A DNA stretch of 61,116 nt from a virus (IMGVR_UViG_3300030106_004626:1-61116); one strand, 5' to 3'; positions 451-58,774 are shown, numbered from the stretch's first letter. The notes: generated from the sequence alone by a model not told the origin. Numbers and translations: made by a program.

Positions 451-485
451 AGTTATAATGTAGGAAATGTTTTAGCAGGTTGCAA
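451..485 (-). promoter_or_regulatory. Leaderless promoter of the metallopeptidase-VWA gene
   Basis: On the minus strand: TTGCAA (480-485), 17-nt spacer, TACATT (457-462), then 6 nt to ATG. Transcription would be expected to start at the A of the start codon. The 18-bp element at 483-500 overlaps the -35. The same site is present at 61018-61052 in the right-hand copy. Confidence 0.65.
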
Positions 486-505
486 GACCTTTTAGAAATT
501 ATTTA

Positions 506-1447
506 TCACAGCCCCGCAGCAGCCATCCGGTCGGAGAGATTCTCGTAGGTCTCGTTCCATTCCTTAGCAGTCTCCTTTCGCTCGGCTGGATCGAGGTCAA
601 CCACATCCAGTCCATCAACCATACTGGCAACCGTGTTAGCCGCAGTCTCCAGCTCGGGGAGGTTCAAGAAGTTTCTCGCCTTAACATCAGCGACCAGATC
701 TTTCAGCCCTTCAAACTTCTCAGGGCGGAGGCGAGTCTTCTTGCCGTTGGCGGTCTTGCCATTAGCTGCCTCCAGTCTCTCGATGCAACTGGACACGGCG
801 TCAAGGAGGCTTTCAACTGGACGCCCGTGGGCCTCCATCATCTTTCGCTCGGTGGCTTTCTCGGCCATGCGTCTTACCCTAGTGGCAGTCTCGGCCAGTG
901 CAGTGTTCACCCAAGCTGAATCAGACAGAGTAGACTCAACATCGAAACCGAACTCGGTCCGCTTCATAAACTTCTTGAGGGAGGGGAACTTGAATCCCTC
1001 CCCGTAAACGTCAAGGTCATCCGCCCCGCGATCTTTCAACATCTCCCACTCATCGCTGATCCGCTTCACGGCTCGCTCGAAGCGGGGTTCAAATGACCGG
1101 ACCACTGATTCAAAGTGCTCAAACGAATCGAGCTTCACAATGTAGCCATTGGCACGGCCAATCTTGCTCAGGCCCTTGTAGCCTTTGTCGAGGTCTCTCC
1201 TCGTCGCATGGCGCTTGAACTCGGCGGACAGGTTGCGGAGATCTCCGATTGCAGTCCCAGCCGTGGGGACAAACTTGGACGAAGCATGAATGAGCTTCTT
1301 GATTTCTTCCCGCTTGTGAATGGGAACGTGCTTCAGGAGTTCCTTGACCATCGCATCGTTCTTCTTAGACACGGTGACGTTGGGAACTCGGAGGGATATC
1401 TCAACCACAGAGTTGAGATCGCTAGTGTTAAATTTCATAGTTGGCAT
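506..1447 (-). CDS. DUF3150-like protein, partner of the MoxR ATPase and VWA genes
   Basis: A 313-residue, mainly helical, charged soluble protein without signal peptide or membrane segment. Composition and position between a MoxR-type ATPase gene (1492-2688) and a metallopeptidase-VWA gene (61017/450) match the DUF3150-type proteins that often accompany such pairs in phages and plasmids; the family assignment is from recall and not alignment. Its role is unknown; an adaptor or substrate for the ATPase-VWA pair is an inference. The first ATG is preferred over the one three codons later because it lies exactly 6 nt after the -10 of a near-perfect promoter. Confidence 0.6.
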   Translation of the reverse strand: MPTMKFNTSDLNSVVEISLRVPNVTVSKKNDAMVKELLKHVPIHKREEIKKLIHASSKFVPTAGTAIGDLRNLSAEFKRHATRRDLDKGYKGLSKIGRANGYIVKLDSFEHFESVVRSFEPRFERAVKRISDEWEMLKDRGADDLDVYGEGFKFPSLKKFMKRTEFGFDVESTLSDSAWVNTALAETATRVRRMAEKATERKMMEAHGRPVESLLDAVSSCIERLEAANGKTANGKKTRLRPEKFEGLKDLVADVKARNFLNLPELETAANTVASMVDGLDVVDLDPAERKETAKEWNETYENLSDRMAAAGL

Positions 1448-1482
1448 AGTGGGATATTAATTTCTCCAGTTAAGGTTGTCAA
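1448..1482 (-). promoter_or_regulatory. Leaderless consensus sigma-70 promoter of the DUF3150-like gene
   Basis: TTGACA (1477-1482), 17-nt spacer, TAATAT (1454-1459), 6 nt, ATG. This is close to a perfect sigma-70 promoter, and the predicted +1 is the A of ATG. No Shine-Dalgarno can fit between the -10 and the start. Confidence 0.8.
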
Positions 1483-1491
1483 TAATTTCTA

Positions 1492-2688
1492 TCAGTTTTT
1501 TACGAGGCCGGTCAACTGCTTGGCATTCTCATGGAAAATGATTGGGTTGTCTTCCTCGGGATCGGACGGCGTGGAGTGGGCCTTGAGCGTGGAGAATGTC
1601 CACGCCCCCAGTTCAGCGGAGCACTCCTTGAAAAGGTCGAACGCCCAGTCCCAGAGACCGCTGACGATCGCCGCCGCCTTGTCATCTCCAGCCTCGTTCA
1701 GGCATACCCTGACCGCTGCGAACGCAAGGGCCGGATGCTTGTGCTTGGGGATGTTTGAAATCTTTTTCTTCCCCGCTCGGATAGCGGACAACTCAGGCCC
1801 TACCTCCAGCACGGTGTGAATAAGGTTGGCAATATCTTTGCAGATCATCTCGGGGATACTGCTGCTTGCTCGGCGAACGAACTCATCAGGGTCACCCTTG
1901 ATTGAATCGAAGGTGGGGTAGGCTTTCAAGACTCCCTCCCATGACCGACCGGAGCAGACAGGCCCGCCCACATATCTTCCTTCTGGTCCCTTCCATGGAT
2001 CAACCCCCTCGCCGTCGGTCTCCACGCCCTTGGAAAAGAACTCAAGATACTGCCAGATAGGACTGGCGGCATAGGCAGAGAAGTAATCGAGGAATTCTTC
2101 CACGGTCAAGACCCAGTTGAAGAGGGCGAGGCGAGCCGCTTCTGGCTTAGTGAACTCACGCTTCGCAGTGGTATCGGATTCTCTCCCGTTTGCAGTGAGC
2201 ATGATCTTGACGTTCGGCCCGAGAGCGTGAGTCCCGATATATCTCTTCACACCCTTGGGGGCATACCATGTGGGGCGGAGTGCGTGGAGCACGGGGTCTT
2301 CGTAGGTCAGGGCCTCATCGAAAACCCAGAGCACCTTCTTGTCCCCGATCAGGGCCTCGGTCGGTGCCTCCTTGGGCTGGGCTGGGCGGAGAACGAAGTC
2401 CCCTTTGCCAGTCGTATCGAAGGGCATATCAACTCCAATGAGCATCTCCTCATGGACACCCTTGAAATTAGAAATTAATATCCCGCCTTCACAGGCAGGG
2501 TCGAGAAGTTCGGGCATCGTCACCTGTCTCGGAGGGATGCCCAATTCTTTGGCAACGGTAAAGGTCGAGGTGGTCTTCCCGCTCCCCGTATCACCGAGAT
2601 AGGCGAGGGGCCGATCGGAGTCCCGAGAGAACTCAACGTCTCCTTTGACGGTGGAGAAGCCGGACTTAGCAAGTTTTAATGATGGCAT
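1492..2688 (-). CDS. MoxR-type AAA+ ATPase
   Basis: 398 residues. Walker A is GDTGSGKT at residues 32-39, and a Walker B of the form VLWVFDE follows near residues 118-124. A later stretch with TANGR resembles the sensor-1 asparagine region of MoxR/CobS-like ATPases. ATPases of this class act as oligomeric remodelling machines and usually work with a VWA-domain protein, which here is encoded two genes on (61017-59575), with a DUF3150-like gene between. Each of the three has its own promoter and not a shared operon leader. The target is unknown; CobS-type cobalt chelation is a common but unlikely label. The start is fixed by the promoter 6 nt upstream. Confidence 0.75.
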   Translation of the reverse strand: MPSLKLAKSGFSTVKGDVEFSRDSDRPLAYLGDTGSGKTTSTFTVAKELGIPPRQVTMPELLDPACEGGILISNFKGVHEEMLIGVDMPFDTTGKGDFVLRPAQPKEAPTEALIGDKKVLWVFDEALTYEDPVLHALRPTWYAPKGVKRYIGTHALGPNVKIMLTANGRESDTTAKREFTKPEAARLALFNWVLTVEEFLDYFSAYAASPIWQYLEFFSKGVETDGEGVDPWKGPEGRYVGGPVCSGRSWEGVLKAYPTFDSIKGDPDEFVRRASSSIPEMICKDIANLIHTVLEVGPELSAIRAGKKKISNIPKHKHPALAFAAVRVCLNEAGDDKAAAIVSGLWDWAFDLFKECSAELGAWTFSTLKAHSTPSDPEEDNPIIFHENAKQLTGLVKN

Positions 2689-2723
2689 AGTTGAAGGCTA
2701 AATTAGATTTTTAATTGCGTCAA
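2689..2723 (-). promoter_or_regulatory. Leaderless promoter of the MoxR-type ATPase gene
   Basis: TTGACG (2718-2723), 17-nt spacer, TAGCCT (2695-2700), 6 nt, ATG. The -35 surroundings (ATTATTGAC) match those of the DUF3150-like promoter, which suggests a duplicated promoter type. Confidence 0.7.
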
Positions 2724-2729
2724 TAATTT

Positions 2730-2924
2730 TTATATCTTTTTTTTCTCAAGGCGGTCAACGGTTTTCCAGACGGCGTGTGCCACCTGCTCGTCAGTCAGGC
2801 GCGGGAGTCCCTGCATCTCCAGTTCATTCTGGACAGTAGTGATGATCCCAAGTCCGAAGACGAGGGCATTGTTCACCGCGCTATCAAGTACGGATTGCTG
2901 GCTAGGGGTGAGGGGTTCAATCAT
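2730..2924 (-). CDS. Small hypothetical protein
   Basis: 64 residues, soluble and helical, ending in a lysine cluster. It overlaps the end of the preceding gene (2917-3111) by 8 bases, so the two are probably translated together. An AACCTGAA motif lies 17 nt upstream of the ATG, inside the upstream coding region. No family recognised. Confidence 0.6.
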   Translation of the reverse strand: MIEPLTPSQQSVLDSAVNNALVFGLGIITTVQNELEMQGLPRLTDEQVAHAVWKTVDRLEKKKI

Positions 2925-3111
2925 TATCTCGACTTTTAATATTCAGGTTAAGCATTCTCCGGTCGGTTCCTTCTGGAGGCAAGGTCGGTTCCAGTTCGTA
3001 GTCCATGTTGACCCCGTCGAAAGAGTCACCATTAACTGTGACCTCCGCATCAGATACATCAAAGATGGCACCGTAATACCGGAGGCAGTTGATCAAGTTC
3101 GGTATGTTCAT
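2917..3111 (-). CDS. Small hypothetical protein
   Basis: 64 residues, acidic, no membrane segment and no recognised family. It is the first gene of a two-gene unit with 2730-2924. The ATG sits 6 nt after a TATTCT -10, so its mRNA is predicted to be leaderless. Confidence 0.6.
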   Translation of the reverse strand: MNIPNLINCLRYYGAIFDVSDAEVTVNGDSFDGVNMDYELEPTLPPEGTDRRMLNLNIKSRDND

Positions 3112-3160
3112 AATTATAGAATAAGAATAATGGGTTTAAGCTCAAGAACTATTTTGTATT
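3112..3160 (-). promoter_or_regulatory. Leaderless promoter with conserved upstream element
   Basis: TTGAGC (3140-3145), 16-nt spacer, TATTCT (3118-3123), 6 nt, ATG of 2917-3111. The 18-bp element AATACAAAATAGTTCTTG (minus strand, 3143-3160) overlaps the -35 and is identical to the copy at 4607-4624. Confidence 0.65.
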
Positions 3161-3401
3161 AGTTGTAATTGGATTGGACATTGTCTCTTGCAACCCAACG
3201 TGAGGTAGCGGTAATAAGTAAGACTGGTTGCCCTCCCTCCTGATCAAAATCAGGATCATCATCGCGGAGTCTCGCAAAGCAATCGATAGATTCAAACGTA
3301 TCATCCACTAGGTTATGGATAGTCACGTTTGTTTTTCGTTGCTCGGGGGTCAAATTTTGTAACCAAGCAAGTAAATCTTGATAGGTTCTTTTCGGACTCA
3401 T
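3159..3401 (-). CDS. Hypothetical protein
   Basis: 80 residues. The N-terminal part reads like a small helical domain (KRTYQDLLAWLQNLTPEQ), followed by an acidic stretch. No family recognised. Four heptad repeats of TGAACCC separate it from the stop of 3433-3783, so translation depends on a short repetitive leader with no Shine-Dalgarno. Confidence 0.6.
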   Translation of the reverse strand: MSPKRTYQDLLAWLQNLTPEQRKTNVTIHNLVDDTFESIDCFARLRDDDPDFDQEGGQPVLLITATSRWVARDNVQSNYN

Positions 3402-3407
3402 TTATCG

Positions 3408-3437
3408 GGGTTCAGGGTTCAGGGTTCAGGGTTCAGA
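3408..3437 (-). repeat. Heptanucleotide tandem repeat in the leader of gene 3159-3401
   Basis: TGAACCC is repeated four times on the minus strand. The first copy includes the TGA stop of 3433-3783 and the last ends about 6 nt before the ATG at 3401. Copy-number slippage would change the distance between stop and start without altering a reading frame. Confidence 0.85.
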
Positions 3438-3783
3438 AAGGGGACTCAGCTTGGGCGAGGTCCGCGAAAGAAGCAGGAGTCGCGCCCTTCTTCACGGTGT
3501 AACCGTCCACTTCATCAAAGCTGGACACATCGTCGTTGTGGAACCACCGCTCACGACCGTCTTCCGCCGTTGCCCTAGTGAAGTGATCGATGACACTCTG
3601 CGATTCAAATCGCAGCGCAAACTCTAAAGCATCCTCCTCGCGCTCGAATTCATACCATTCATTGAACGGGGATGACCCGCTAGTGACGGCGTGGAAGAAG
3701 TGGCCAAATGACTTGTTGAAGACACATCCCCAAAACCATTCGGGCTGGTGGGATTGCTTTGCGTAGTTAAGTAGTTCACTCAT
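3433..3783 (-). CDS. Hypothetical protein
   Basis: 116 residues rich in aromatic residues (PEWFWGCVFNKSFGHFF), with no membrane helix long enough to call and no recognised family. It belongs to the closely packed set of minus-strand genes at 2.7-6.3 kb. An AACCTGAACC motif lies just upstream of its ATG. Confidence 0.6.
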   Translation of the reverse strand: MSELLNYAKQSHQPEWFWGCVFNKSFGHFFHAVTSGSSPFNEWYEFEREEDALEFALRFESQSVIDHFTRATAEDGRERWFHNDDVSSFDEVDGYTVKKGATPASFADLAQAESPF

Positions 3784-3815
3784 TGGTTTAGTGGTTCAGG
3801 TTTCGGGGTTCAGGG

Positions 3816-4001
3816 TTAGTGAGGAAAGCCTAGCACTGAGACATCAGAGACGTTTTTTCCTACGAAGCGCACGACAAATTCAAGAGGCTCCTCGGAGAGA
3901 AGATCCTTGGCTACAATTTCCCCATCCTTTACGGACAGGCTGAAGCCGCCGTCCACCGCCGCAGTTTCTAGGTGGGATAGGATTTGATCGATTCTATACA
4001 T
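3816..4001 (-). CDS. Small hypothetical protein
   Basis: 61 residues from the ATG at 4001; an in-frame start at 4046 would overlap the upstream gene. The internal start is preferred because it follows the stop of 4012-4233 by a normal gap and is preceded by AACCTGAAGC. Acidic, soluble, unknown function. Confidence 0.55.
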   Translation of the reverse strand: MYRIDQILSHLETAAVDGGFSLSVKDGEIVAKDLLSEEPLEFVVRFVGKNVSDVSVLGFPH

Positions 4002-4011
4002 CGTTAGTGCT

Positions 4012-4233
4012 TCAGGTTGCGTTACGTTCTTTGAGGATCTCATCAATGGCTTCTGCTTTCCCCTCCAGCCTGTTCAGTACGCCTCTGGGATCTTCAGGGA
4101 ACTCATCAAGGATCGCTCGCACACGAGTGATGTCCTCGTAGCATTTATCACGTTCCTTGCGGAGACGAGCAGTGGGGCACGAGTAAAGGAATTTAAGCAG
4201 CGACAAGTTTTCTTTTTCTTCTGTTGATAACAC
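4012..4233 (-). CDS. Small helical hypothetical protein
   Basis: 73 residues beginning with GTG. Charged and largely helical (probable coiled coil around LLKFLYSCPTARLRKERDKC). An AACCTGAACC motif precedes the start and forms the last codons of the upstream gene 4242-4574. No family recognised. Confidence 0.55.
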   Translation of the reverse strand: MLSTEEKENLSLLKFLYSCPTARLRKERDKCYEDITRVRAILDEFPEDPRGVLNRLEGKAEAIDEILKERNAT

Positions 4234-4241
4234 GGTTCTTC

Positions 4242-4574
4242 TTAGTGGTTCAGGTTGGGGTCATTGTCCATTGCCTCCCGAGCCTCGGCCTCACGCTCGT
4301 CGAACCATTCGTCAAGAGCGGGGTCGGGGGGAGTGACAGCTTCCAGCTTCGCGATCTCTTCAAAGACAGACCGCTCATCGTAATCGTTGTAGGCCCTCGG
4401 CCCATCGTCCAGCATCATGCGGAGATCGGCGGGGTCCATGGGCTTGAGGGATGGGGCCGGAGCAGAAGCCTCCCCCGATTCCTTGGGTGATTCGGAGGAG
4501 GCATGATGCCCAGTTCCACCTGTAAAGATTTTAGTGAGGGCGTTGTGAACTGAGAAGGGGGCGTTGTCAGGCAT
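4242..4574 (-). CDS. Hypothetical acidic protein
   Basis: 110 residues with a Ser/Pro/Ala-rich, probably disordered N-terminal half and a strongly acidic C-terminus. It starts MPD, as do the products of 5321-5614, 5994-6332 and 6435-7034. The start is 6 nt after a -10 hexamer. Function unknown. Confidence 0.6.
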   Translation of the reverse strand: MPDNAPFSVHNALTKIFTGGTGHHASSESPKESGEASAPAPSLKPMDPADLRMMLDDGPRAYNDYDERSVFEEIAKLEAVTPPDPALDEWFDEREAEAREAMDNDPNLNH

Positions 4575-4624
4575 GGTTTTAAGGTAAGAAATTAATGAGG
4601 GGATAACAAGAACTATTTTGTATT
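4575..4624 (-). promoter_or_regulatory. Leaderless promoter with conserved upstream element
   Basis: TTGTTA (4604-4609), 17-nt spacer, TACCTT (4581-4586), 6 nt, ATG at 4574. The 18-bp element at 4607-4624 abuts the -35 and doubles as the last codons and stop of gene 4613-5059. Confidence 0.6.
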
Positions 4625-5059
4625 TTTTTCAGAAAGAGAAAGACCCGCCGCTTTTACTGAGTCATCTTCGATGGCAGCGATCTCATCGTAGGCGTCACCC
4701 CATGGGCCGTAGGTCTCATGCTCTACCAGAGCCTCAAGCATCTCAGCGTAGGTGTATTCATAGAAGGGATACTTGTCAGGGTTCACACCACCGAGCTTAA
4801 AGTATCGGGGTGCAGGGAGCAGTCCGCCCCTGCCATTGGCAAGGTCAATGACCAGTCCCATCTCCCTGTTGAAAAGAAAGGCATGGCCGAATCGGACTCC
4901 CTCGATGGGGCCTCCCCCAGCGCACATTGTATGGACGAGGGTCCATGAATTGCGCTTGTCGGGGAGACCGAACTCAGTCCACCTGTTCTCCATGAAGGAG
5001 TTCACAGCAGACTCGTAGCAGTCGCCGAGATCCTTTGTATATTCGACGGCTACCGACAC
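4613..5059 (-). CDS. Hypothetical protein with possible Cys-His-Asp arrangement
   Basis: 148 residues, GTG start embedded in the end of gene 5050-5337 (GAGTGTCGGTAG), so probably translationally coupled. The order of conserved-looking residues (DCYES, later FGHAF, then VIDLAN) resembles a papain- or transglutaminase-like Cys-His-Asp triad, but this is only a pattern impression. No signal peptide. It could equally be a structural protein of unknown role. Confidence 0.55.
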
Positions 5060-5337
5060 TCGCTCAACGGTTTAGGGCTGAACCATCTGTCCCTCTCGAT
5101 CGGGAGACCGAGCGGACCACGGGCGGAGGCCAGTTCTGACAGGGAGAAGTAGCCGAGTTCCTTGTCGAAGCCATCGACAAGGCCGAAGAACCGATCCTCG
5201 CCATCGAACTCGGTCGCATACCAAGTCCAGTTGGAGTCCGGTGTGAAGAACTTGGCGACCGCAGTTGGGTCTTCGTCCTTCTCAGTTGAGTAGAGTGGGG
5301 GCAGCTTGGCCCTCAGTTCTTTAGTTAGCAGTTTCAT
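5050..5337 (-). CDS. Hypothetical protein
   Basis: 95 residues, soluble, aromatic-rich in the middle (NWTWYATEF). It overlaps both its neighbours (upstream 5321-5614, downstream 4613-5059), which indicates one transcription unit. No family recognised. Confidence 0.6.
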
Positions 5338-5614: not shown

Positions 5615-5676
5615 GGTCTTAGAGTAAGAAAGGTTTTAACAAAAGGCGAGCATAAAATGAAATTATTTTACAGGAG

Positions 5677-6332: not shown

Positions 6333-6381
6333 GGTTACACCATACACGGCGGGGACAGGGGAGCAAGAACATTCTGGTATT
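6333..6381 (-). promoter_or_regulatory. Leaderless promoter with conserved upstream element
   Basis: TTGCTC (6361-6366), 16-nt spacer, TATGGT (6339-6344), 6 nt, GTG at 6332. The 18-bp element occupies 6364-6381 and is fused to the terminator at 6395-6421. Confidence 0.65.
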
Positions 6382-7034: not shown

Positions 7035-7083
7035 GACTGCATATTAGCAGGACCGCATAGGGGGTCAAGAACTTTCTAGTATT
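7035..7083 (-). promoter_or_regulatory. Leaderless promoter with conserved upstream element
   Basis: TTGACC (7063-7068), 16-nt spacer, TAATAT (7041-7046), 6 nt, GTG at 7034. The 18-bp element is at 7066-7083. This promoter is the strongest support for the GTG start. Confidence 0.75.
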
Positions 7084-7096: not shown

Positions 7097-7124
7097 AAAA
7101 AGGCCCCGCAAAAAGCAGGGCCTT
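7097..7124 (-). terminator. Rho-independent terminator after gene 7150-7527
   Basis: The stem is the same as at 6398-6421 (AAGGCCCTGC / GCGGGGCCTT on the minus strand) with a five-base loop, followed by a T run. The block 7066-7109 repeats 6364-6407 with two mismatches, so terminator and next promoter travel together as one module. Confidence 0.9.
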
Positions 7125-7149
7125 GAGAGAGTGTCCTGTGGAACGTGGA

Positions 7150-7527
7150 CTATGGCTTGTTTAGCTTGTTCACGACCATGTGGACCGGACGATCCTCGTC
7201 GCCATCAACATAGCCAACCTTGGCCATGACCTTGACCGAGTCCGTTCTTTCAAACGCTGGGAGAAATCCCATCGCATCGAAGAACTTGTATCGGGTCGCA
7301 TGGCTCAGGAAACCGTCACCAGAATCGATGTCATAGGTGCCATCGAGAATCACAGAGTGGTAGCTCGTGCCATAAGGCGCAATCTCGGTGATCCTGCAAC
7401 CCCATGGGGCCGCATCCTCGCGGAGATTAAGATGGCTCGGGTGGAGTCTCATCCCCTCTTCAAGGGCGGAGACCTTTTCGTCAACCCAAGCGATTTTCAG
7501 CGCGGCTGGAAATTCAATCTTGCTCAT
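7150..7527 (-). CDS. Hypothetical protein with a strong Shine-Dalgarno
   Basis: 125 residues, soluble, no recognised family. Unlike most genes here it has a near-perfect ribosome binding site, AAGGAGGT at 7536-7543, 8 nt before the ATG. That fits its place as second gene of a two-gene unit behind the kinase (7579-8079), where a leaderless start is impossible. Confidence 0.65.
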   Translation of the reverse strand: MSKIEFPAALKIAWVDEKVSALEEGMRLHPSHLNLREDAAPWGCRITEIAPYGTSYHSVILDGTYDIDSGDGFLSHATRYKFFDAMGFLPAFERTDSVKVMAKVGYVDGDEDRPVHMVVNKLNKP

Positions 7528-8728: not shown

Positions 8729-8763
8729 TTGACAAATTATCCTTCATTGCTTTAATCCACCCA
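8729..8763 (+). promoter_or_regulatory. Leaderless promoter, first rightward gene
   Basis: TTGACA (8729-8734), 17-nt spacer, TTAATC (8752-8757), 6 nt, ATG at 8764. This is the plus-strand counterpart of the minus-strand leaderless promoters. Confidence 0.7.
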
Positions 8764-10583: not shown

Positions 10584-10612
10584 AATATACATAATTGACT
10601 ACGGGCCTACAA
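10584..10612 (-). promoter_or_regulatory. Promoter of the lipoprotein cassette
   Basis: On the minus strand TTGTAG (10607-10612), 17-nt spacer, TATATT (10584-10589). It overlaps the rightward portal promoter (10595-10623), so the two polymerases would compete. Confidence 0.5.
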
Positions 10613-10630
10613 AAAGGTATCAACTTGACA
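10595..10630 (+). promoter_or_regulatory. Near-leaderless promoter of the portal gene
   Basis: TTGACT (10595-10600), 17-nt spacer, TATCAA (10618-10623), 7 nt, ATG at 10631. It explains why the reading frame is open upstream: the TTG at 10595 is a -35 element, not a start. Confidence 0.65.
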
Positions 10631-27002: not shown

Positions 27003-27036
27003 TTGACCCTTGACCCCTATTCTGGTAGCGTCAGTC
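27003..27036 (+). promoter_or_regulatory. Near-leaderless promoter of the adaptor-like gene
   Basis: TTGACC (27003-27008), 17-nt spacer, TAGCGT (27026-27031), 5 nt, ATG at 27037. It supports the internal start over the one at 27010. Confidence 0.6.
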
Positions 27037-36052: not shown

Positions 36053-37183
36053 TTAGGAGAGGGTGTGCCTCGCCTGAGATGTTGTGACAATACCCGCGTC
36101 TTCACAGGCGTCAACAAATTCTTGAGATATTTTTTTCCGCTCTCCCTTTTCTGCTTTGTCGCCGAGCGTTTTAGCTATTTTTGCTAGTGGCAAATTAACT
36201 GCCTCAATAACTTCTTCTGCGCCCATCCCAAACTGTTCGGCGATTTCTAACAGTTTAATGTTATCCTCCACTTTCTTTGTGGTCCCCATATTTTTAAGGC
36301 GTAAGCTAGGAAACTCAGTCCCATTTTTTGCCATGGCTACGGCGCGTTTCTTTAGTCTGTCGGCCCAGTTAGAAACCATCTTCGCGATTACCCATAACTG
36401 TTCAATTACTTCGGGGTCTTCTACTTCATCGAGATCAACGTCTGGTAGATCCGTATTTATCTTTTTTGCTACTGAAACCACTACCCCGCCTAAAGCTGGA
36501 CAAGCGTCTTCGTGACGGCAGAACCGGCAATTAACTGTAGGTGTAAGGTCAGCAAGTTCTGGGGTTCCGTTTTCCCACTTGGGCCTAACAGACTCTCCCC
36601 TCTTAATCACTTCTGTTAGTCTTCTAACAAGAACCGGAATATCTTCTCTTTTAAATGTGTGGAACAAAGTCTCGTTCCTTACAGGAACATAGAACACAAA
36701 CGTAATTTCTTTAATCTCAGGGAACTTTTGAAAAGTCCCAACGGTATACGCTTGGGCTTGCCAGTTCTTTTCTGGTGGATCGATCATGGAGATCCCTGTC
36801 TTGTAGTCGGCCTGAACAGCCGTATCGTCGTTAAAGACAGTGAGTCGATCACAAGTGCCCCAAGTTTCTGTTCCTTCTAACTCGACAGTCAACTGAATCT
36901 CTTTGAAATCTTCTTTTAACACCCTCTTGCTTTGCGCGTAGTTAGCAAGAAATGCTTTTTCCTCTTCCATGATTTGCTCATAGATTGAAATTTCTTCTTC
37001 GCTTTGAAGGTTAGAAGAGTCTTCGACTTCCAACGCTTCGTGTATCCTTGTGCCTTTTTCAGCAGCAGCGTTTGTTCCGCTTCTTCCGTGAAACCCAGCA
37101 CAGCCCGCTATATACTTCAGGGCGGAAGGAGAAAATTCAGCGTGGTCTCTATCTGAGTGAGAATCGGGCATAGCCTCGATCAT
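36053..37183 (-). CDS. RecB/Cas4-like PD-(D/E)XK nuclease with Fe-S cysteines
   Basis: 376 residues. The nuclease motif is Q-A-D-Y-K near residue 126 (Asp126, Lys128) after GTRIHEALE at about residue 45. Four cysteines, Cys28 and Cys219/222/228 (CRFCRHEDAC), are arranged as in Fe-S-containing Cas4/RecB/AddB-type exonucleases. It likely processes DNA ends in replication or recombination. Start overlaps the RuvC-like stop (ATGA). Confidence 0.8.
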   Translation of the reverse strand: MIEAMPDSHSDRDHAEFSPSALKYIAGCAGFHGRSGTNAAAEKGTRIHEALEVEDSSNLQSEEEISIYEQIMEEEKAFLANYAQSKRVLKEDFKEIQLTVELEGTETWGTCDRLTVFNDDTAVQADYKTGISMIDPPEKNWQAQAYTVGTFQKFPEIKEITFVFYVPVRNETLFHTFKREDIPVLVRRLTEVIKRGESVRPKWENGTPELADLTPTVNCRFCRHEDACPALGGVVVSVAKKINTDLPDVDLDEVEDPEVIEQLWVIAKMVSNWADRLKKRAVAMAKNGTEFPSLRLKNMGTTKKVEDNIKLLEIAEQFGMGAEEVIEAVNLPLAKIAKTLGDKAEKGERKKISQEFVDACEDAGIVTTSQARHTLS

Positions 37184-37671
37184 ACATCCTTAGACCGCTC
37201 TGTCAAAATATATTTAGCAATTAAATACGCATCAACCATCCCGTCGTGTGGAGTGCGGCAACGCTTGTTTTTTAGCCAGTTTTCTGCGGGGGCAAGTCGC
37301 TCCGCTACGTTTAGAGCTGCAACTTTAGACATTCCTTTTGGCACGTTACCCAACATTTTCTTCTGCCACTTGTGGACCGAAACTCTAACAAGATCGTAAT
37401 CTTTTACTTCTGCTATTCCTACGATTTTGCCAAAACTTAATGCCATTGAGCGAACTGCCTGTGAACTCTTTGCGTGAGCGAGGGGTTCTTCTACAGCTAA
37501 CGTAAACGGCGTGTGCAGGTTTATTAACCACTCATTGATTTTACGCGCATCAACTTCACGCTTTTTACTCCTCTGCATTGTAGGCATCGGGATTTTATCA
37601 ACCACCCCACCGTCAAAGTCTGAAATTGCACAAAGCCCCCCGTCTAGTCCGTTGTCTACGCCGATTATCAT
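37180..37671 (-). CDS. RuvC-like Holliday-junction resolvase
   Basis: 163 residues from the ATG at 37671, which overlaps the preceding stop and gives a canonical start with IIGVDNG (Asp6). The further acidic residues appear in AVEEPLA and HDGMVDAYLIA, the layout of the RuvC RNase-H-like fold. It resolves branched DNA before packaging. Belongs to the overlapping minus-strand replication operon. Confidence 0.8.
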   Translation of the reverse strand: MIIGVDNGLDGGLCAISDFDGGVVDKIPMPTMQRSKKREVDARKINEWLINLHTPFTLAVEEPLAHAKSSQAVRSMALSFGKIVGIAEVKDYDLVRVSVHKWQKKMLGNVPKGMSKVAALNVAERLAPAENWLKNKRCRTPHDGMVDAYLIAKYILTERSKDV

Positions 37672-52500: not shown

Positions 52501-55500
52501 GCGTCTTGAGCGAAGACGCACCGGAAACTGTGTTCATGGGGAGAGATTCGATTGACGGGTTTTATAACTCTGTAGCGCACCCATATGAAAATCAGAGGGA
52601 AACAATACCTACCTTTAACTCTGAAGAACTTGCTAGTGATTACCGTGCGCGGCGTATGGCGGACATAGGTATTTCTCTTGTAAGGAGACCCATGACCACA
52701 CGGGAAAAAATACGCAAGCAGACAGAACAAGAAGAGCCAAGCGTAACTCTTGGAGATATTATCAAAGGGCTTCCGGCGACACTTGTGTCAGGTGGCTTGG
52801 CAACAGACACAAAAAGAAATTTGTTTGGCACGACAATTAAAGAGAACGCAAGAATGCGTATCAGTGCTAAAGCTCTTGATAGAATTCGCCAAGAGAAAGC
52901 CAGAATCGCAGAAGAAGAACCTATGTTCCGCGAAGAAGGCGCGATTGAAACAAAAGCGTTACGGTCGGGTGTTCAAGTAGAGAGCGCAAAGATTCTTACT
53001 TTGAGTGAACTGAGAGGGCTTGATAGTTCTGTTAACGAAGCGGTTCAGGATATTGAAAATGATCAGGGCCGTCCTCTCGACGAGGGGCAGCAAGCCTCTA
53101 TTATGTCCGGCATCTTCGGGGCCGTGTCTGATCTTCCGTCTGAGTTTAATGACGCTGGTGTAGACTATAGCGAGTTTATCGAATTGTTGGAGCTGCCCCT
53201 TATCGAAAAAAGTGTTGGCTTCAATAAGATCGGCGGGACATTCAAGAAGCTATTCCTCGGGGAGACTGACCCCACAGTTCAGCGGTTCTCTCGGCAAAGG
53301 GATGCGTTCCTTAGATCAGGAGACAAGATAGTTGAGGAGTATCATTTGAAATATAAGAGGGCGATCGAGAAAGACTACGACCCCGACAATACCCCGTGGG
53401 AAACAATCCAGACAGCTAGCGGAACGACCAATAACATTGACCCTGACCCTGACGGAGCGATAGCTGATGCTAGGGACAAGGCTAAGATTGATATCCAGAG
53501 GAAGTATGCCGCCGAGTTATCAAATAAAATAACGCAGATAGAAGATGCGTATGACAACGCACGCGCCAACATCAAGGCTACAGAACCTGATGCAGGTAAG
53601 CGCAGGCAGCTTCGCAATCAAGAGAGGAAAAAGAAGAATGAAGCGATTACGCGAGAGACTGAGTTGAATAAGGCAGCTAAAGGAGCTGAAGAGGATCTAG
53701 CCGACATCAGTTATAAGGCCGACATAAAGAAAGCGTTCGCGGCTAGAAAAGATAAAATGATGCGTGACCGTGACGCAGCCTTAAAACAAATACAAGTAGA
53801 GTCCCCAGACTTATTCAACGTCCTTCTTGATCTCCGGCGGCTCACAGACGAGCTATCCGTAAAAGCAAGAGACCTGTTCGGGCGGCATGATAAAGGGGTG
53901 CTCGTTAAGTTTGATAACAATCTTGGGCTTTACGTCACCCGTAGATACCGGATGTTCTCTGAGACAGACTACGTCGATCGCATTCTTAAATCCAATGAGG
54001 AAGCGGACGTTGCCGTCAGGTCTGCGGCGATTGATTTTATGCACGACCAGTTTATCGAGAACGAAACTCGACGGCAGATAGCTGCCAACCCCTCGATATC
54101 TGAGTCAGATGCACGGGCAGAAGCAGAGAGGGTATACAACTCCAAAGAGCTAGGAGGACAGTCACTGGGGTATCAGATGATCACTGAGTTTCTCTCATCG
54201 TATGATACAGAAACGGGGCCGGAGGATTTTGCTTCCGCCTTTGCATTGGCTGGAATGCCCAAGACCAAAGAGCCACAGGCTACAGGAGCACTCCGCGCAA
54301 TCGTTAAGAACCTGCAAGGCAGGGCGGAAATACCCAAGCCGCTCGCGGACCTTATGGGCGCGAACAACATTCCAGAAGACAGCGTAGACAACCTGCTTTA
54401 TGCCTTCTCTACCGTAGCCAAGATTGCATCACATCAGCATTTCCTTGAGTCGATGCGGCAACAAGGAATAGAGAACGGGTGGCTCTTTACAAAAGAAAAG
54501 TATAACGACCTTCTAAAGGAACCCGATGGGTATACAAAATACGCTAATCGTTTCAGACAGATACAAAATTCTGGGGCGGACAGTGGGCTAAATCCTCTGG
54601 CTGGTTTGTATGTTGAGAAGGATATCTACAATAGCATCTTGCCAATGTTCCAGCAGACAACGAGGGCGGGCAATGACGCCGCGTCTTCCGTGATGGGCAC
54701 TTCCTTGGCGGTAGCGCAGAGACTTACCGGAGCAGCAATGGCTGCGAAGACTCTGTTCTCATTAGGATTCTACCTCCGAAATGCACTCGGTAACGTGCTC
54801 TTCTTCGGCCCCGCGCAGGGATATATCCATTCGGCTAAGGATATTTTTTCTGGTAACCCGATGTCTGGCACGGGGATGAGTATGTTCTCTGCGATTAAAC
54901 GGGCCGTTCAAGGCAACAGGGCCGAGACTAGCGCATACCTCAGATCGCTTGAGGGGCTTGATGTCTTCGGAAACGAAGTCCGTTCGGAGATTATGATCCG
55001 GCTGCTTCGGGGAGAAGAAACAACTGATGGAGTTCAAGCCCAGCTTTCAGATCTAGCGTCTAAGGCATCCAGCAAAAAGACACCTGCACACGCTAGAAGA
55101 GTCGCAGCGGATACGATGGCGCGTCTAGCAGGGGCCATGGATACCTTCTACAAGATTGGTTACTTTGAACACGAACTAGCCGTGCTGCGAAAAGCATACA
55201 AAGCAGATCTGGCTGCGGGTAAAATCTCGGAAATAGATCTAAAGCGTGAAGCAGCAGAGATCATAGGGGACACCGCGCAGTCATATTCTCGCGCCCTTCC
55301 GATTATTAAAAAGTTCACTGGCTCCGGCGCTGGGTTGCTCATCGCACCTTTCGTTCGGTTCACGGCTGAAGTCCCACGGATTGCGGTCAATACAATCAGA
55401 CGAGGAGTCAAAGAGATGGGGTCGGACAACCCCGTCATCAAAGCGAGGGGATATCAACGGCTGGCAGGGTTCGCCGCAGTCACTGGGGGCCTCAGTATGG

Positions 55501-56453
55501 CGGTGCCTACGCTCTTGCGAGTCGTGCTCTCTGGGATGGGCGAGGAAGAAGATGAAGCGTTCCGTATGTCTTTACCTCCATACCTTCGGAATCATACTTT
55601 CTTCATTCAGAAGTTAGACAACGGAGACATCAAGTCATGGGATCTTACTTACTTAAATCCTTTTTCAGTTATCGCGGACCCGATGTTGCGGACCCTAGAA
55701 CACGCCGTGCGGGGAGAGCCGCTCACTGCCGCTACTAAGCTAGTCACATCCAGCTTCGTTGATCCTTATCTCGGCGATCAGATCTTTGCCGGAGCGGTCT
55801 TTGATATTAGAGAGAACCGGAATGCGCGTAACGATAATCCTATTTGGGAGGAGACAGATACATTACCGCTTAGGATTGCTAAGATGGCTAGGTATCTAGG
55901 GGAAGAAGCCTACGGGCCGAGGACTCCCCTGAAGTTAATCGAGGCTTACCAAGCACTCGGGCGGGACGAGCAGAGTTTTGATAACTCAGCGTTCGGCATT
56001 ATCTTTAACGAAGCAATGCCCGTGGTGCCTAAGACCAAGGCCCCCATCGATATGTTTGAGCGAGTCGTGTTTAAGATGCGCGACGAGCAGACAAGAGCGC
56101 AACGTAAGTTTGGGGAGCTAAAGAAAACCGCAGGGATGACCGAGGGTCAAGTGGCAAGAATCCACCGAGACATCAGGAAGAGCAGGATGCGTATCAACAG
56201 CCAACTGTCCCGCGCCATGAAAGGTTTCAGGGGGATGGGCGTCTCGAACAATGATATGTATCAGGCAATGAAAGGGGCCAGATACGGGAAGCGGAGATCC
56301 CAGCTTCTGTTCACAGGGTTCATGGAGAACCCTGTCCCACCCAAGAATCTGGTAGATGATTTAATGTCTACTGAAGTGGGGAGGGAAAGACTGAGAATAC
56401 TCATGGAAGAACACGCTAATTACGCAAGGTTCCTCCGGCTGGACGATGATTAA
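43542..56453 (+). CDS. Giant polyvalent ejection protein (4303 residues)
   Basis: One uninterrupted 12.9-kb frame. Visible parts: an N-terminal helical region with hydrophobic stretches near residues 518-560, 655-675 and 770-790 that could insert into membranes; a zinc-peptidase motif HELTH at 1663-1667 with E1731 in EFVAHF as likely third ligand; a degenerate second motif EEVAH ending at His1975; a region with AVLSPQKDWF (about 2463) and DTHAVSAL (about 2650) typical of large polyvalent-protein domains; Lys/Glu coiled coils around 3280-3430; and a C-terminal region with LGFYLRNALGN (about 3737) and LIAPFVRFTAEVPR (about 3935). Such proteins are packaged and injected with the DNA to protect it or disable host functions. 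Confidence 0.75.
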   Translation: MSEQTDTQPTVNPLGFSEWSSENNFNDPLESRVKYGDYLREQYINAEAYNPTVEQEISTAFAQSLQQEGLLTEENVGDVEQRISAIQGSVSLDQEARNMRDSLSSTEDAQTLSDYLSAADVDAPSPEYLEELQPLKSKATEIVNNEKDARARAMIDAGEIPMAKLSSGELLVGEAAERMGIVAAIKSSKSGGVTMSDAIAAKAQLNTPDGWEIPLYKIKNLTDIYRLLEVEQKADEDFSLIIDGLSTELAESEYDAGDRMEKWLDGLGRSGVNFIRRISGKGEDVDKENARRRAIEEARGTNIRQLAAKYALKFDKRPEDVERALKQLSVDNANKKQMFEFHDEDDEIGKNIRFLGFGLPSVSPQALVNKDVFDKAIAAHPDMSQNVKDALDRQRVNYLQSQFVDYNKLLSQTSVADEWSKALITGRASGVEDYRILEAFVADEDNYNEFKERLSGLGASVWHGFGQIIHAIPAGFGLQMSKDYLASVAQKNSNRRQLAEVFGEEFGFLQDVGETAFPMLIDVGLTALLAAGTAPLGGSGAVAYASMKAGGRASASLAGKGVTKALFSNVFRRKAGKSITEQADELLGEGLIKGTRSGAVDILKNYNGKLASKLGIAPAVFVPAATRSGSATYGAVYNQLRQNPDITEEEAHDRALGSMLLAGTFTGIITSSFSLIGKGGLEDALLKGLTYKQMNTVAKSVTNMVEGDLFETAQKAISTTMKKYAFGGVKGLMKNFADEGVEEGIDEFVNGLITDAALNENTPFLERLQQTWHAVVLGGTMGAGVPVAQFALRPLKPAATSSAQMGAMFDEVLTDMARDLTDNGAPITAEVLSAIASDTRRKDARLSVVPTPQEQEDILEEQRTRTLVPQDSGVPLASGITSDEKFSQELETSVNPDSVAEAVAETLASSTPVVSGADPNTVETKGSLMRSLGMQVREASSVENTDHQSVRDLLVPPVAGTEPDYFEGARPLARQLVLDPSRQSEADAIEASYTERIQKVNEAEARYRKMDREAQPFEMAAGLESPVRKGLRRAVQEGKAISPEKAAELRGDVFKDRILALKKLKIEQSVEQEEQEAQELPASIEAPVNFLINSGFQHIVTIPKLKRLGIPVNARTTSEPFLRSVNRRIAKEVTEKFPKLKITKPANGSAIKSVYGQGQVFVDQNQVGQFDNDPVAMLTLLELGTPIVVSEEALSSPTLNPAFRFTQVGETTVVSNIMVPESRGLVSALTPAERALALRPDYSPLSELVNTVTSLRGEGIQNPDALISSPFNPDEKITVEEAMSKLEQSADVTEFLQPTRRGLTEPFAATAAIELRLRAQEALFRGDTVSLEGLGNQVANRYQQEQEARLNHQKEVFMSTVSPENAAELQADPDFNPESETSDTYTAYPEEDPILFSPSELSGLLKDAQSNAIAAITGDQELKTRVVNLVQNEVFTSTTIDFDRVSNKALWGYLVQWMAQGNSRAHPASITFQKELKGNRFDMGRPVRDALRIMTLSSNSIEGTIQNNSEYRSFLKDQIRSLRGVEASDGQVTEFFNFIRRSIGELHLRSQPTAMSLAEVQQVNLEAIAALGLKSGDSSSIIEALRRIAGVSSRTQKKYDKNLVALARLLLKSPDYINTIELTIDETNQNYAGNFDILNDGTPAISINISGHNPRGVADTLLHELTHAFVTNVTRKSPAQQTRQEANAIGVLEQTVRGIRERLNVRGSQLTKVGYTNNDPRVLDGVENIDEFVAHFLTSTDFQAVVKVISDQQNNFFQRAIDAIVAFFNPTQTEIPQFTEIFSSVLDLSQAAIATAGPRKKKATISMDEFVALQDEGRVNSESLSTTAADYIADKVFPASPATNSTIRKEPVTANSLANKVAHDIIQSQQEQVRLASNVQAATGVDPTTQQEIISRIEETVSYVEGLVSPETQIEINNEIPVMAEVDPKTGVLTINPLKLSGLVLELQQRNGGRPVPVHTRRGILAVVINEEVAHAASVSALTTTEIQEIMDSMTLADAYRAIDAYGDDSAKAGEVRESMKMGWRTGNPEVKSQVVEEMLRQHAQRVTRGFTTEEDVAFLRSNPSLLQYIIRYFKSFLKKLGYYRSRGDITPQLRVAVDRMVNEIRAMESGFRVQSNFAPFDANNPASAVEKFRKQINMNKPIERPDAGVPALASGITTLDDEAQPTKYQIIDRHTGLQVGADYTDKKRARSRRERLDLEYGGYRYGVREVSSGRMLSSGITADALSLSPVDAPLDLSGIGVTAGSRVNTAQGREAEDSTFEAYEQQDSYVINSVSVAKYVAFQGRKNLRGRPTQVRGKDTLVYKQLKALDDRRVEMFPATAIKATLIKEINSASRVSDALVKRIANKLYTGEAGFTGTEAQMANVKGLIDFVRGADRTTLAAAKEWRSQTNKDILDEMRPLADEVYDTVSAFAVDNLVHLYDSMHPVMRERAKLWYEGANRIAQDMAKRYNITLEQSSTALAVLSPQKDWFQNVSLAGRVMEVVTKNKQNKYTKSMADKALQMAENISKSAAETAGQFQKRKKEVIYDTKKFNDMMLGKTLGQLIKQAKKGTESETLPARYVRIFDQLNHPRGYAILSPEGDRLGLQVTKKNTIAAVGWGSYKEIQKAIDALLTTDEAVHSDLLGEQHKVRNFRNNIADPANSDDGTIDTHAVSALYFIPVAGADTEVAHNFASSKGEDKISSSGSKQFGINGTYALNLKAHQDAAAFINERDGTNLSTREIQSITWEQIRTLFLPEQKREKASYAKKEDKETVLDESRQIWDKTTDDGEARQLIEERFGGYGFPDWATPRELRSVAEDTAYAEKVRLKRLPSSSASGLSDPDASGDPDGTSSAGVTGLKSGIWSPAAHMLDVSSNEAAELLSDIRLDGAKESSKNRFLTAAEEANKSLDDFDLEGASIFLAEDNSAGVAVSPVTESEGGDLFIFDSRDDNKNVIGILELLEVATSQEAIADSSGNPIKVATVKVKDINNLPTVMHQTFGFSPYSRVLSEDAPETVFMGRDSIDGFYNSVAHPYENQRETIPTFNSEELASDYRARRMADIGISLVRRPMTTREKIRKQTEQEEPSVTLGDIIKGLPATLVSGGLATDTKRNLFGTTIKENARMRISAKALDRIRQEKARIAEEEPMFREEGAIETKALRSGVQVESAKILTLSELRGLDSSVNEAVQDIENDQGRPLDEGQQASIMSGIFGAVSDLPSEFNDAGVDYSEFIELLELPLIEKSVGFNKIGGTFKKLFLGETDPTVQRFSRQRDAFLRSGDKIVEEYHLKYKRAIEKDYDPDNTPWETIQTASGTTNNIDPDPDGAIADARDKAKIDIQRKYAAELSNKITQIEDAYDNARANIKATEPDAGKRRQLRNQERKKKNEAITRETELNKAAKGAEEDLADISYKADIKKAFAARKDKMMRDRDAALKQIQVESPDLFNVLLDLRRLTDELSVKARDLFGRHDKGVLVKFDNNLGLYVTRRYRMFSETDYVDRILKSNEEADVAVRSAAIDFMHDQFIENETRRQIAANPSISESDARAEAERVYNSKELGGQSLGYQMITEFLSSYDTETGPEDFASAFALAGMPKTKEPQATGALRAIVKNLQGRAEIPKPLADLMGANNIPEDSVDNLLYAFSTVAKIASHQHFLESMRQQGIENGWLFTKEKYNDLLKEPDGYTKYANRFRQIQNSGADSGLNPLAGLYVEKDIYNSILPMFQQTTRAGNDAASSVMGTSLAVAQRLTGAAMAAKTLFSLGFYLRNALGNVLFFGPAQGYIHSAKDIFSGNPMSGTGMSMFSAIKRAVQGNRAETSAYLRSLEGLDVFGNEVRSEIMIRLLRGEETTDGVQAQLSDLASKASSKKTPAHARRVAADTMARLAGAMDTFYKIGYFEHELAVLRKAYKADLAAGKISEIDLKREAAEIIGDTAQSYSRALPIIKKFTGSGAGLLIAPFVRFTAEVPRIAVNTIRRGVKEMGSDNPVIKARGYQRLAGFAAVTGGLSMAVPTLLRVVLSGMGEEEDEAFRMSLPPYLRNHTFFIQKLDNGDIKSWDLTYLNPFSVIADPMLRTLEHAVRGEPLTAATKLVTSSFVDPYLGDQIFAGAVFDIRENRNARNDNPIWEETDTLPLRIAKMARYLGEEAYGPRTPLKLIEAYQALGRDEQSFDNSAFGIIFNEAMPVVPKTKAPIDMFERVVFKMRDEQTRAQRKFGELKKTAGMTEGQVARIHRDIRKSRMRINSQLSRAMKGFRGMGVSNNDMYQAMKGARYGKRRSQLLFTGFMENPVPPKNLVDDLMSTEVGRERLRILMEEHANYARFLRLDDD

Positions 56454-56639: not shown

Positions 56640-56855
56640 TTAATTTTTTAGAATAATGTTGGTGAGTCGGAGGGCGATATTATTGCGGGTCTTGTCATCA
56701 AGCATGGGCGAAGCGGGGAGCACCTTGTCATCAAAGACAGGATACAAGGCGCAGGTATCAGGGTTCACGGTAGACTCATTCGGCTGAATCTCCCCCTGTA
56801 TCATCATGGGCATTCCGCTCGGGTATACTTCCCTGACTACGTGTCTATACTCCAT
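56640..56855 (-). CDS. Small hypothetical protein
   Basis: 71 residues, soluble, beta-rich start. It overlaps the helicase stop and is probably cotranscribed with the helicase. No family recognised. Confidence 0.55.
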   Translation of the reverse strand: MEYRHVVREVYPSGMPMMIQGEIQPNESTVNPDTCALYPVFDDKVLPASPMLDDKTRNNIALRLTNIILKN

Positions 56856-58146
56856 GGAGTGTGTGAAGGTTATCCAGACGCCGGTTGATCGAAGTCATAA
56901 CGTGTTCTTCAATAGAGTTCGTTGCAACTAAAACTTTCTGAACCGCATCGCTCTTGCCGCCGTTGCGGTGGATCCGCCCCAGCACTTGCTTGTAAACTTT
57001 GCAGTTGAATGTCGGAGAGATCAAAGAGGTTCGGGGTCTGTTGCCCACCGTGTCGTGAAGGGAGATGCCGGTCCCACCCGCCGCTGCATTCACCACAAGA
57101 CAGTGTGACTTGTCCTCCTGAAAGTCATCGATAACTTGCTGACGTTTGTCACCAGTCTGGCGACCGTCAATCCAATCACACTTGAGTCGGATACGGAGAG
57201 CGTCAACCGTGTCCTTGTAGTTGACAAAAAGAACAACGGACTTGCCACGGGCCATGAGGTCTTCCGCCATCTCGGCGAGGTCAACGACCTTAAATGATTC
57301 CGCCAACTGACGGGCAGCAGTGATGTTAGCCAGAACGTGATCTCTATCTGTGACCGTTCCCTTTTCGATAAACTCTTCCACAATCTGAGGTGTAATGCCT
57401 AGACTATCATAAGCCTTGATGATCTTCTTGTTCTCTCTGAACTCAATCGGGACAGTGAATATCCGGTTCAGCTTAAAAGATGCAGGGAAGTCATCGACGG
57501 TGAGGCGCATGGTGTTTGTGGAATACATCTCTGCTCGTAGCCGTGGAAGATGCGCGGGGTTTTCAAGCACCCATGAACCCCACTCGTTCTTGACGCACCC
57601 GTATTCCTTCATCCAAGGCCACCATCTCTTCAGACCAGCTACCTTCTGATCTCCAGAGTGGAGACCGAGAGCCATCCCGAGGGGGCGCATCTCGGTCGGG
57701 TCTTCACAGGAGGTCGCACTCATGCAGTGGACACTGAAGCCTTGCTTGATTAATGCTATGAACAAAGCCGCGTTCTGAGTAAACGGCCCCTTGCACTGGT
57801 GGACTTCATCGACAAGGAACAATGTGTCAGGGTCCATGTGCCATTTGAAGGACTTCTTGCCTACCTTGGTAAGGAACTGAGTCTTGCCCGTTCGCAACCG
57901 CTCAAGGTTCAGGATGAAGGTAGCAGTCAACCCCTGTTCTTCCAGCTCCCGTTCCCATGAGGGGATGACAGACTTAGGGCAAATGATCGCAACGGGCCGA
58001 CCAAGTTTCTTGGCCATGAGTATGGCCATGAGGGTCTTGCCAACTCCGGCATCAGACTGGTCACAGGTATTAAATCCGGCGGATTGCCTCCGGTGAAAGA
58101 AATCAATCGCCGAGCTTTGGATTTTGTAAGGCTTCTTTTTGCTCAT
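56845..58146 (-). CDS. SF2 (SNF2/DEAD-like) DNA helicase or translocase
   Basis: 433 residues. Walker A is DAGVGKT (residues 32-38), motif II is DEVH (113-116), and the C-terminal helicase lobe has VVNAAAGGTGISLHD and LGRIHRNGGKSD (motifs V and VI). A short helicase of this kind may remodel DNA or remove bound proteins early in infection. The predicted transcript would begin 6 nt upstream of the ATG, at ATT. Followed by two small genes. Confidence 0.8.
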   Translation of the reverse strand: MSKKKPYKIQSSAIDFFHRRQSAGFNTCDQSDAGVGKTLMAILMAKKLGRPVAIICPKSVIPSWERELEEQGLTATFILNLERLRTGKTQFLTKVGKKSFKWHMDPDTLFLVDEVHQCKGPFTQNAALFIALIKQGFSVHCMSATSCEDPTEMRPLGMALGLHSGDQKVAGLKRWWPWMKEYGCVKNEWGSWVLENPAHLPRLRAEMYSTNTMRLTVDDFPASFKLNRIFTVPIEFRENKKIIKAYDSLGITPQIVEEFIEKGTVTDRDHVLANITAARQLAESFKVVDLAEMAEDLMARGKSVVLFVNYKDTVDALRIRLKCDWIDGRQTGDKRQQVIDDFQEDKSHCLVVNAAAGGTGISLHDTVGNRPRTSLISPTFNCKVYKQVLGRIHRNGGKSDAVQKVLVATNSIEEHVMTSINRRLDNLHTLHGV

Positions 58147-58201: not shown

Positions 58202-58287
58202 TTTTAAAGCGGTCGCCGCTCGGGTGTTTCATTAGGAACTAGCTAAACCCGTTGCAGGATCTCCCTGCATACCATGCCCGAGCGGCG
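58202..58287 (-). terminator. Structured RNA / terminator before the helicase gene
   Basis: An 11-bp stem (CGCCGCTCGGG 58214-58224 with CCCGAGCGGCG 58277-58287) closes a region containing a second hairpin (TGCAGG 58253-58258, CCTGCA 58264-58269). On the minus strand the 3' arm can instead pair locally (AGCGG-CGA-CCGCT) just before TTTAAAAAA. The region contains no gene. A terminator with an alternative structure or a small RNA are both possible. Confidence 0.6.
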
Positions 58288-58291
58288 AAAG

Positions 58292-58405
58292 CTATTTAGT
58301 AAGAAATTGCAACAGCGCAAACCCTACGTGGATAAAGAGGAATGTAGCTACGAAGGAAGTGAGCACGAGCGTAACCGTTTCGTAAACTGCTAATTCTTTT
58401 TTCAC
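58292..58405 (-). CDS. Small membrane protein (37 residues)
   Basis: From a GTG at 58405, one base after the preceding stop. Almost all of it is a single membrane segment (VTLVLTSFVATFLFIHVGFALL). An upstream extension of this frame to 58534 is open but overlaps the gene 58407-58568, which looks the better coding frame. Unknown function. Confidence 0.5.
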   Translation of the reverse strand: MKKELAVYETVTLVLTSFVATFLFIHVGFALLQFLTK

Positions 58406-58406
58406 G

Positions 58407-58568
58407 TTAAAGCGCGTGATCGAATTCAACTTTTTCTCTGACTTCCGATATCCGACATCCAAAAGAGAAGTCCAACTCGCCGTCTTCTTCAGCTCTCGTG
58501 AGTATCGACAAGATGAGACGGGCTTGCGTTTCATTATCGGTAGTGATGTTTAAGGTAGCTCCTTCCAT
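58407..58568 (-). CDS. Small acidic hypothetical protein
   Basis: 53 residues from the ATG at 58568, one residue pattern TLNITTDNETQARLILSIL followed by an acidic helix. The ATG is directly preceded by CCTGAACC. This frame is favoured over the overlapping 80-codon frame for its protein-like composition and its tight spacing to both neighbours. No family recognised. Confidence 0.5.
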   Translation of the reverse strand: MEGATLNITTDNETQARLILSILTRAEEDGELDFSFGCRISEVREKVEFDHAL

Positions 58569-58583
58569 GGTTCAGGGATCGGG

Positions 58584-58739
58584 TTACATTTGTTTGAGCA
58601 GGTAGAGAATAGCGTCAATCCTCGGCTTGAGTCCTGCGCGTTCTTCGGCGATGGCTTCTAGTTCTTTCTGAATTACGTATCGGGTTGACCCTTTACGCAT
58701 GGCAGGAAACCAATGCCGAACATCAATTATCTTACTCAC
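58584..58739 (-). CDS. Small helical protein under an operator-controlled promoter
   Basis: 51 residues from a GTG at 58739, helical and charged (RYVIQKELEAIAEERAGLKP). The GTG lies exactly 6 nt after TATAAT. The promoter spacer carries a copy of the operator half-site CTGTTAGA, so this gene is predicted to be co-regulated with the 8.2-kb control region. Function unknown. Confidence 0.6.
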   Translation of the reverse strand: MSKIIDVRHWFPAMRKGSTRYVIQKELEAIAEERAGLKPRIDAILYLLKQM

Positions 58740-58774
58740 AAAAGAATTATACATATTTCTAACAGAATGTCCAA
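58740..58774 (-). promoter_or_regulatory. Leaderless consensus promoter with operator half-site
   Basis: TTGGAC (58769-58774), 17-nt spacer, TATAAT (58746-58751), 6 nt, GTG. The half-site CTGTTAGA (58758-58765 on the minus strand) lies in the spacer, so a protein bound there would block RNA polymerase. Confidence 0.75.

Follow-up and report, generated by a model that had tools for sequence, protein, structure and literature searches.

Leaderless genes in phages and bacteria

The cI gene of phage lambda is the textbook leaderless gene; its transcript from PRM begins at the AUG, whereas lambda otherwise uses Shine-Dalgarno (SD) sequences. Lambda is cited as the first leaderless example (PMC3160421). 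In bacteria, TA-led leaderless genes are a recognised class (Zheng 2011, PMC3160421), and a '-10 region adjacent to ORF' has been described in Deinococcus-Thermus (PMC12340547). A multi-gene phage case is phiYS40 of Thermus thermophilus, in which most middle and late mRNAs are leaderless (Sevostyanova 2007, as summarised in PMC3594737); the same review reports that phiYS40 shifts IF2/IF3.

The phage described here is marine and uncultivated. It is represented by an IMG/VR virus record of 61,116 nt, and this whole stretch of DNA is called the window; genes are named by the coordinate of their start codon. A set of its genes is very probably expressed leaderless or near-leaderless (0-1 nt) from sigma-70-type promoters which place +1 on the start codon. 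The candidate set comprises 1447, 2688, 450/61017, 3111, 4574 and 7034, probably also 6332 and 8764, and elsewhere 27037 and 37171. Host RNA polymerase with a housekeeping sigma-70-type factor would bind TTGACA and TANNNT boxes, and a discriminator of 5-7 nt would set +1 at the first base of the ATG or GTG. The mRNA would then begin with the start codon and be translated without SD pairing. From the sequence we infer the exact +1, the use of the host polymerase and the recognition of a 5'-terminal start codon by the ribosome.

Like phiYS40 as presented in that review, where the messages are used by host ribosomes, the window phage appears to have many leaderless genes in one genome. The initial annotation had called this unusual, which is fair, although phiYS40 is a precedent. 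In the review's account, the phiYS40 genes are middle and late genes in a thermophile, whereas those in the window are mainly of early type (a label based on gene position and content), with 27037 and 37171 in addition. The window promoters also have full -35/-10 boxes, unlike those of phiYS40 as reviewed.

With TA-led bacterial genes the window phage shares a TANNNT some 10 bp before the start and the lack of an SD. The TA-led and Deinococcus-Thermus cases are chromosomal; here, near-identical promoter-start stretches occur on several early genes of a phage lineage, which, unlike those cases, has kept a clear -35 box. Lambda has one leaderless repressor gene, whereas here a gene set is involved, in phages without SD enrichment. 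The leaderless class is known; what is new is a well-conserved example in another phage lineage, in which the promoters have both -35 and -10 boxes and most of the genes are of early type. It provides a clean, conserved and testable multi-gene case in an uncultivated lineage whose environmental relatives are numerous. It is also a warning that start codons in phages of this kind can be placed wrongly by gene callers that rely on SDs.

The window and its relatives

The window has a terminal repeat of 549 nt with two mismatches, and its proteins include a family A DNA polymerase, a helicase, an exonuclease and a terminase. No carrier of this terminase was found among 50,697 annotated phage records, so no cultured relative was usable. 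Terminase relatives were taken from viral contigs, and 80 were kept (75-96% identity). The comparison set consists of 17 related contigs and the window, 18 in all. Genes were called in each with a coding-potential model which is blind to upstream signals; the starts are computed and draw on no protein data. A viral-contig scan with 59575-61017 gave one distant relative and a scan with 6435-7034 gave none; orthologs of both are nonetheless present within the related contigs. One ORF of 4303 aa (43542-56453) is matched in 17/17 relatives at 24-55% identity.

Promoters adjacent to start codons

The initial annotation described a phage-wide set of sigma-70 promoters in which the -10 hexamer ends 5-7 nt, mostly 6 nt, before the start codon. 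The 6-nt spacing holds for 450/61017, 1447, 2688, 3111, 4574 and the GTG starts 6332 and 7034; a -35-like hexamer is found 16-17 nt above the TANNNT at each of these and at 27037. The p values below come from a promoter matrix (see the next section), and the number between two boxes is the spacer.

On the minus strand, TTGCAA-17-TACATT (457..485) lies 6 nt before ATG 450 (p 4e-4). The second copy, before 61017 (61024-61052), is in the terminal repeat and is the same site. Further 6-nt sites on this strand are TTGACA-17-TAATAT (1454..1482) with CCCACT before ATG 1447 (p 5e-5), TTGACG-17-TAGCCT (2695..2723) with TCAACT before ATG 2688 (p 2e-4), TTGAGC-16-TATTCT (3118..3145) with ATAATT before ATG 3111 (p 9e-4), and TTGTTA-17-TACCTT (4581..4609) with AAAACC before ATG 4574 (p 3e-3). 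The -35 region of 4574 is a repeat common to 3142, 6363 and 7065. Its start region is repeated at ATG 5614 (minus strand), which the initial annotation missed; here TACTCT (5621..5626) precedes the start by 6 nt (AAGACC), lacks a good -35 and scores weakly (p 0.03). The GTG starts 6332 and 7034, also on the minus strand, follow TTGCTC-16-TATGGT (6339..6366) with GTAACC (p 0.03 alone) and TTGACC-16-TAATAT (7041..7068) with GCAGTC (p 7e-5), respectively.

At 8079, for which a 5-nt gap had been proposed, there is no TANNNT in the proper place (p 9e-3). On inspection, the second gene of this unit (7150..7527, minus strand) has a canonical SD, AAGGAGG, of which there are few; the annotation was right that an SD (AGGAGG before 7527) is found where a gene is second in a unit.

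On the plus strand, TTGACA-16-TTTAAT (8729..8756; p 1.5e-4) lies 7 nt from ATG 8764 (TTTAAT-CCACCCA-ATG) and not 6 nt as first described. The 8764 start was added by hand and is supported by the relatives' proteins, which start at about the residue it encodes. The gaps given for the other two plus-strand sites are correct: TTGACT-17-TATCAA (10595..10623; p 4e-4) is 7 nt from ATG 10631, and TTGACC-17-TAGCGT (27003..27031; p 1e-4) is 5 nt from ATG 27037 (TAGCGT-CAGTC-ATG). A minus-strand site overlooked by the annotation, TTGACA-16-TATGAT (37179..37206), lies 7 nt before ATG 37171. Most of the sites are in the early-type block; 27037 is in a block taken as structural, and 37171 is the exonuclease gene. 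Taken singly, the sites at 4574, 5614, 6332 and 8079 are weak.

The promoter proposed for 58739 (TGGACA-16-TATAAT, 58746..58773, minus strand; p 6e-4) fits the layout formally, yet it was rejected because the stretch lies inside the coding sequence of relatives. In four of these (G001, G002, G026 and G027), the orthologous ORF starts 11-13 codons further upstream and reads through the '-35' and 'TATAAT' as coding sequence (MIKTIGxSVRxxYN...), so the match is probably coincidental. In the window ORF (58584-58754), the ATG and first codons of the relatives are absent, and the stop of the upstream gene overlaps that region.

Frequency of the layout

The layout counted was a TTGACA-like box, 16-18 nt, TANNNT, 5-7 nt and a start codon. 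The control with shuffled sequence suggested in the initial annotation favours it. In the window, 7/58 called genes have the layout, against 0.41 in shuffles (sd 0.62; at most 3 in any of 200 shuffles); in the 17 relatives, 67/767 genes have it, against 5.8 in dinucleotide shuffles (max 15 in 200). Moving the test 8-18 nt upstream gave 0-2 in the window and 2-7 in the relatives. Among the relatives, the distance (d) from TANNNT to the start peaks at d=6 (45 against 7.3 per position). TANNNT at -12 occurs 51 times against 25 expected from column composition. As in TA-led genes, the motif sits some 10 bp before the start codon more often than in the shuffled control. TTGACA-like boxes peak at -35 (39 against 6.8 expected, z 12), which corresponds to a 17-nt spacer. 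This peak was obtained without demanding a -10, and a -35 box at 16-18 nt spacing is as expected of sigma-70-type promoters.

The matrix was trained on relatives only (spacer 17 in 47/58 training sites, these having been chosen for their -35 match) and then scored on 69 window starts. Ten had p<0.002, against 0.14 expected; 58739 is among them, and as 450 and 61017 are terminal-repeat copies of one site, nine of the ten are independent. The majority of the sites in the initial annotation had p<0.001. Only 13/69 starts had p<0.01, mainly in early-type blocks, and 'phage-wide' was therefore an overstatement. When positions 1-10700 were searched with a generic promoter scan, 14 sites came up where 6.7 were expected; as only two of the listed sites were among them, the scan is an insensitive test. 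The excess of the layout is real and not due to chance. Judged by sequence, about 8-11 genes in the window would be leaderless.

Transcription start and ribosome binding

With a discriminator of 6 nt, +1 is predicted to fall on the A of the ATG. Sigma-70 start points may lie 1-2 nt before or after this base, and leaders of 1-3 nt are therefore possible on some messages. Initiation usually prefers a pyrimidine at -1 and a purine at +1. At genes with d=5/6, base -1 is a pyrimidine in 92% and A in 6%, against 49% and 39% at other genes; two successive pyrimidines precede the start in 76% of the former and 33% elsewhere. In the window, two pyrimidines directly precede 450, 1447, 2688, 3111, 4574, 5614, 6332, 7034 and 27037. 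The bias at -1 fits the initiator preference and is therefore independent support for +1 on the A.

SD cores are not enriched before starts in the phage group and were absent before the listed starts inspected, as in TA-led genes, which have no SD before the start codon. Leaders of the non-leaderless genes are A-rich and G-poor. Before these other genes, the enriched hexamers are for the most part G-runs resembling terminators; none is a clear candidate for another kind of ribosome site. The helicase gene (56845-58146) has a promoter-like site 12 nt before its ATG (14 nt in G026), which would give a short leader without an SD.

It is unlikely that the messages instead have short leaders of 1-4 nt and are translated by the A-rich, SD-independent route of the other genes. 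The character of those genes' leaders would suit this, as would the 7-9 nt gaps with purines directly upstream at 10631 and its relatives, and the 12-14 nt gap with an A-rich end at helicase gene 58146; the pyrimidine found before the ATG in 92% of d=5/6 genes favours a start at the A. Leaders of 1-3 nt may occur at 8764 and 10631, which have 7-nt gaps. Such a leader is suggested for 10631 because several relatives have about 9 nt; for 8764 it could be 0-1 nt.

Intrinsic-terminator-like hairpins precede the promoters of 7034 (7098..7126, minus strand) and 6332 (6395-6423, a twin of the former); their energies are -19.7 and -20.2 kcal/mol, with a z of about -3.3. The 85-nt terminator-promoter-start cassette is duplicated, and the 6332 copy is 79% identical to the 7034 copy. 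Because of the hairpins and the duplication, 6332 and 7034 look like separate leaderless units. It is conceivable, if rather doubtful, that leaderless early mRNAs form a deliberate programme, with promoter-start cassettes duplicated ahead of early genes for an initiation route different from that of the A-rich leadered genes; translation of the early genes would then be under separate control in a host where SDs are scarce.

Tandem GGGTTCA (TGAACCC) repeats are found at 3403-3436, 3787-3820, 4004-4018 and 4242-4256. They precede several minus-strand genes which have no start-adjacent promoter.

Conservation

The best conserved of the candidate promoters, and the strongest evidence of all, is that of 27037. 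TTGAC[CTG]-17-TANNNT-5/6-ATG is found in 17/17 genomes where the start is visible; it is kept with protein identity as low as 36%, although the spacers have diverged and the 17 genomes have 14 different -10 hexamers between them. The layout of 450/61017 is common to three orthologs (G002, G026 and G027). Orthologs in the same three genomes keep that of 1447 (42-44% protein identity), four orthologs keep that of 2688 (40-49%), and two (G002 and G027) keep that of 7034. For 1447, 2688 and 61017 together, the layout is kept at 40-49% protein identity. In G002, G026 and G027, several early genes have a nearly identical promoter of the type TTGACAACTTAACACCTATCTGATACACTACCACC-ATG. At 37171, TTGACA-16-TATAAT-like-7-ATG is found in six relatives whose proteins begin at the equivalent ATG; 37171 is most likely the start of the exonuclease gene.

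The promoters could be real and the called starts wrong, with translation beginning further inside the gene, at a codon that follows an SD or an unstructured leader, so that the mRNAs are leadered. Start positions are computed, and a close in-frame ATG exists in some cases (ATG/ATG at 1447 and in the 27037 orthologs of G025 and G023). This reading is nevertheless very unlikely: in 14 genomes, at identities down to 43%, the alignments of the 27037 orthologs start with residue 1 of both proteins, the called codon stays 5-7 nt from the -10 from genome to genome, and SD motifs are not enriched. That the spacing simply reflects AT-rich sequence upstream of genes and a TANNNT excess due to chance is scarcely credible, for although TANNNT alone is loose and chance matches do occur (5614 and 8079 are weak, 58739 is coding), the column-composition comparisons at -12 (51 against 25) and -35 (39 against 6.8), the dinucleotide shuffles (67 against 5.8) and the 17/17 conservation of 27037 refute it for the set as a whole, though individual weak sites may be due to chance.

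Leaderless initiation from start-adjacent promoters is thus well supported for a subset of genes by shuffles, shifted tests, the matrix, orthologs and the -1 pyrimidine; it fails for two to three of the starts first listed.

Host

Terminase relatives occur in metagenome-assembled genomes (MAGs) labelled Opitutae (two contigs), Blastopirellula and Altibacter, and there is one distant match in addition; MAG bins of three phyla are unreliable as host evidence. Beyond the Opitutae MAG itself, no close copy was found in 188 genomes of its class (the name Verrucomicrobiae is taken from the label of that MAG). In 113 genomes of this class, TTGAC-18-TANNNT-5-Y-ATG has 388 matches, against 64 when the ATG is displaced by 8 nt and 17 for the reversed pattern. 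The count is 65 against 17 reversed in the class of the Blastopirellula MAG, and 30 against 52 reversed in that of the Altibacter MAG. A reading frame is opened by 18/20 inspected Opitutae-class matches and by 16/20 shifted ones; the latter count is what real leadered promoters would be expected to give. The promoter layout may aid host assignment, being strong in the Opitutae MAG's class, weak in that of Blastopirellula and absent in that of Altibacter.

Akkermansia and the verrucomicrobial strain IMCC26134 are listed as SD-scarce (PMC10783764), and the phage may infect a member of the Verrucomicrobiota. The initial annotation had offered a tolerant host or an early phage-modified ribosome. 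The first is enough and the second unnecessary, because Verrucomicrobiae-class bacteria, a candidate host group, use the same layout on chromosomal genes of their own; a putative verrucomicrobial host would account for all findings without a modified ribosome. Pfam scans of 40 window proteins, including nearly all early ones, found no translation factor and no ribosomal protein, and the modified ribosome was set aside as unsupported.

Other genes

The gene at 1492-2688 encodes an ATPase-like protein (PHROG, weak match) and that at 59575-61017 a DUF2201 VWA/metallopeptidase-like protein. The pair resembles MoxR/VWA modules, and each gene has a leaderless-type promoter. The gene at 7579-8079 encodes a protein with a Zeta-toxin/AAA_33-type kinase domain.
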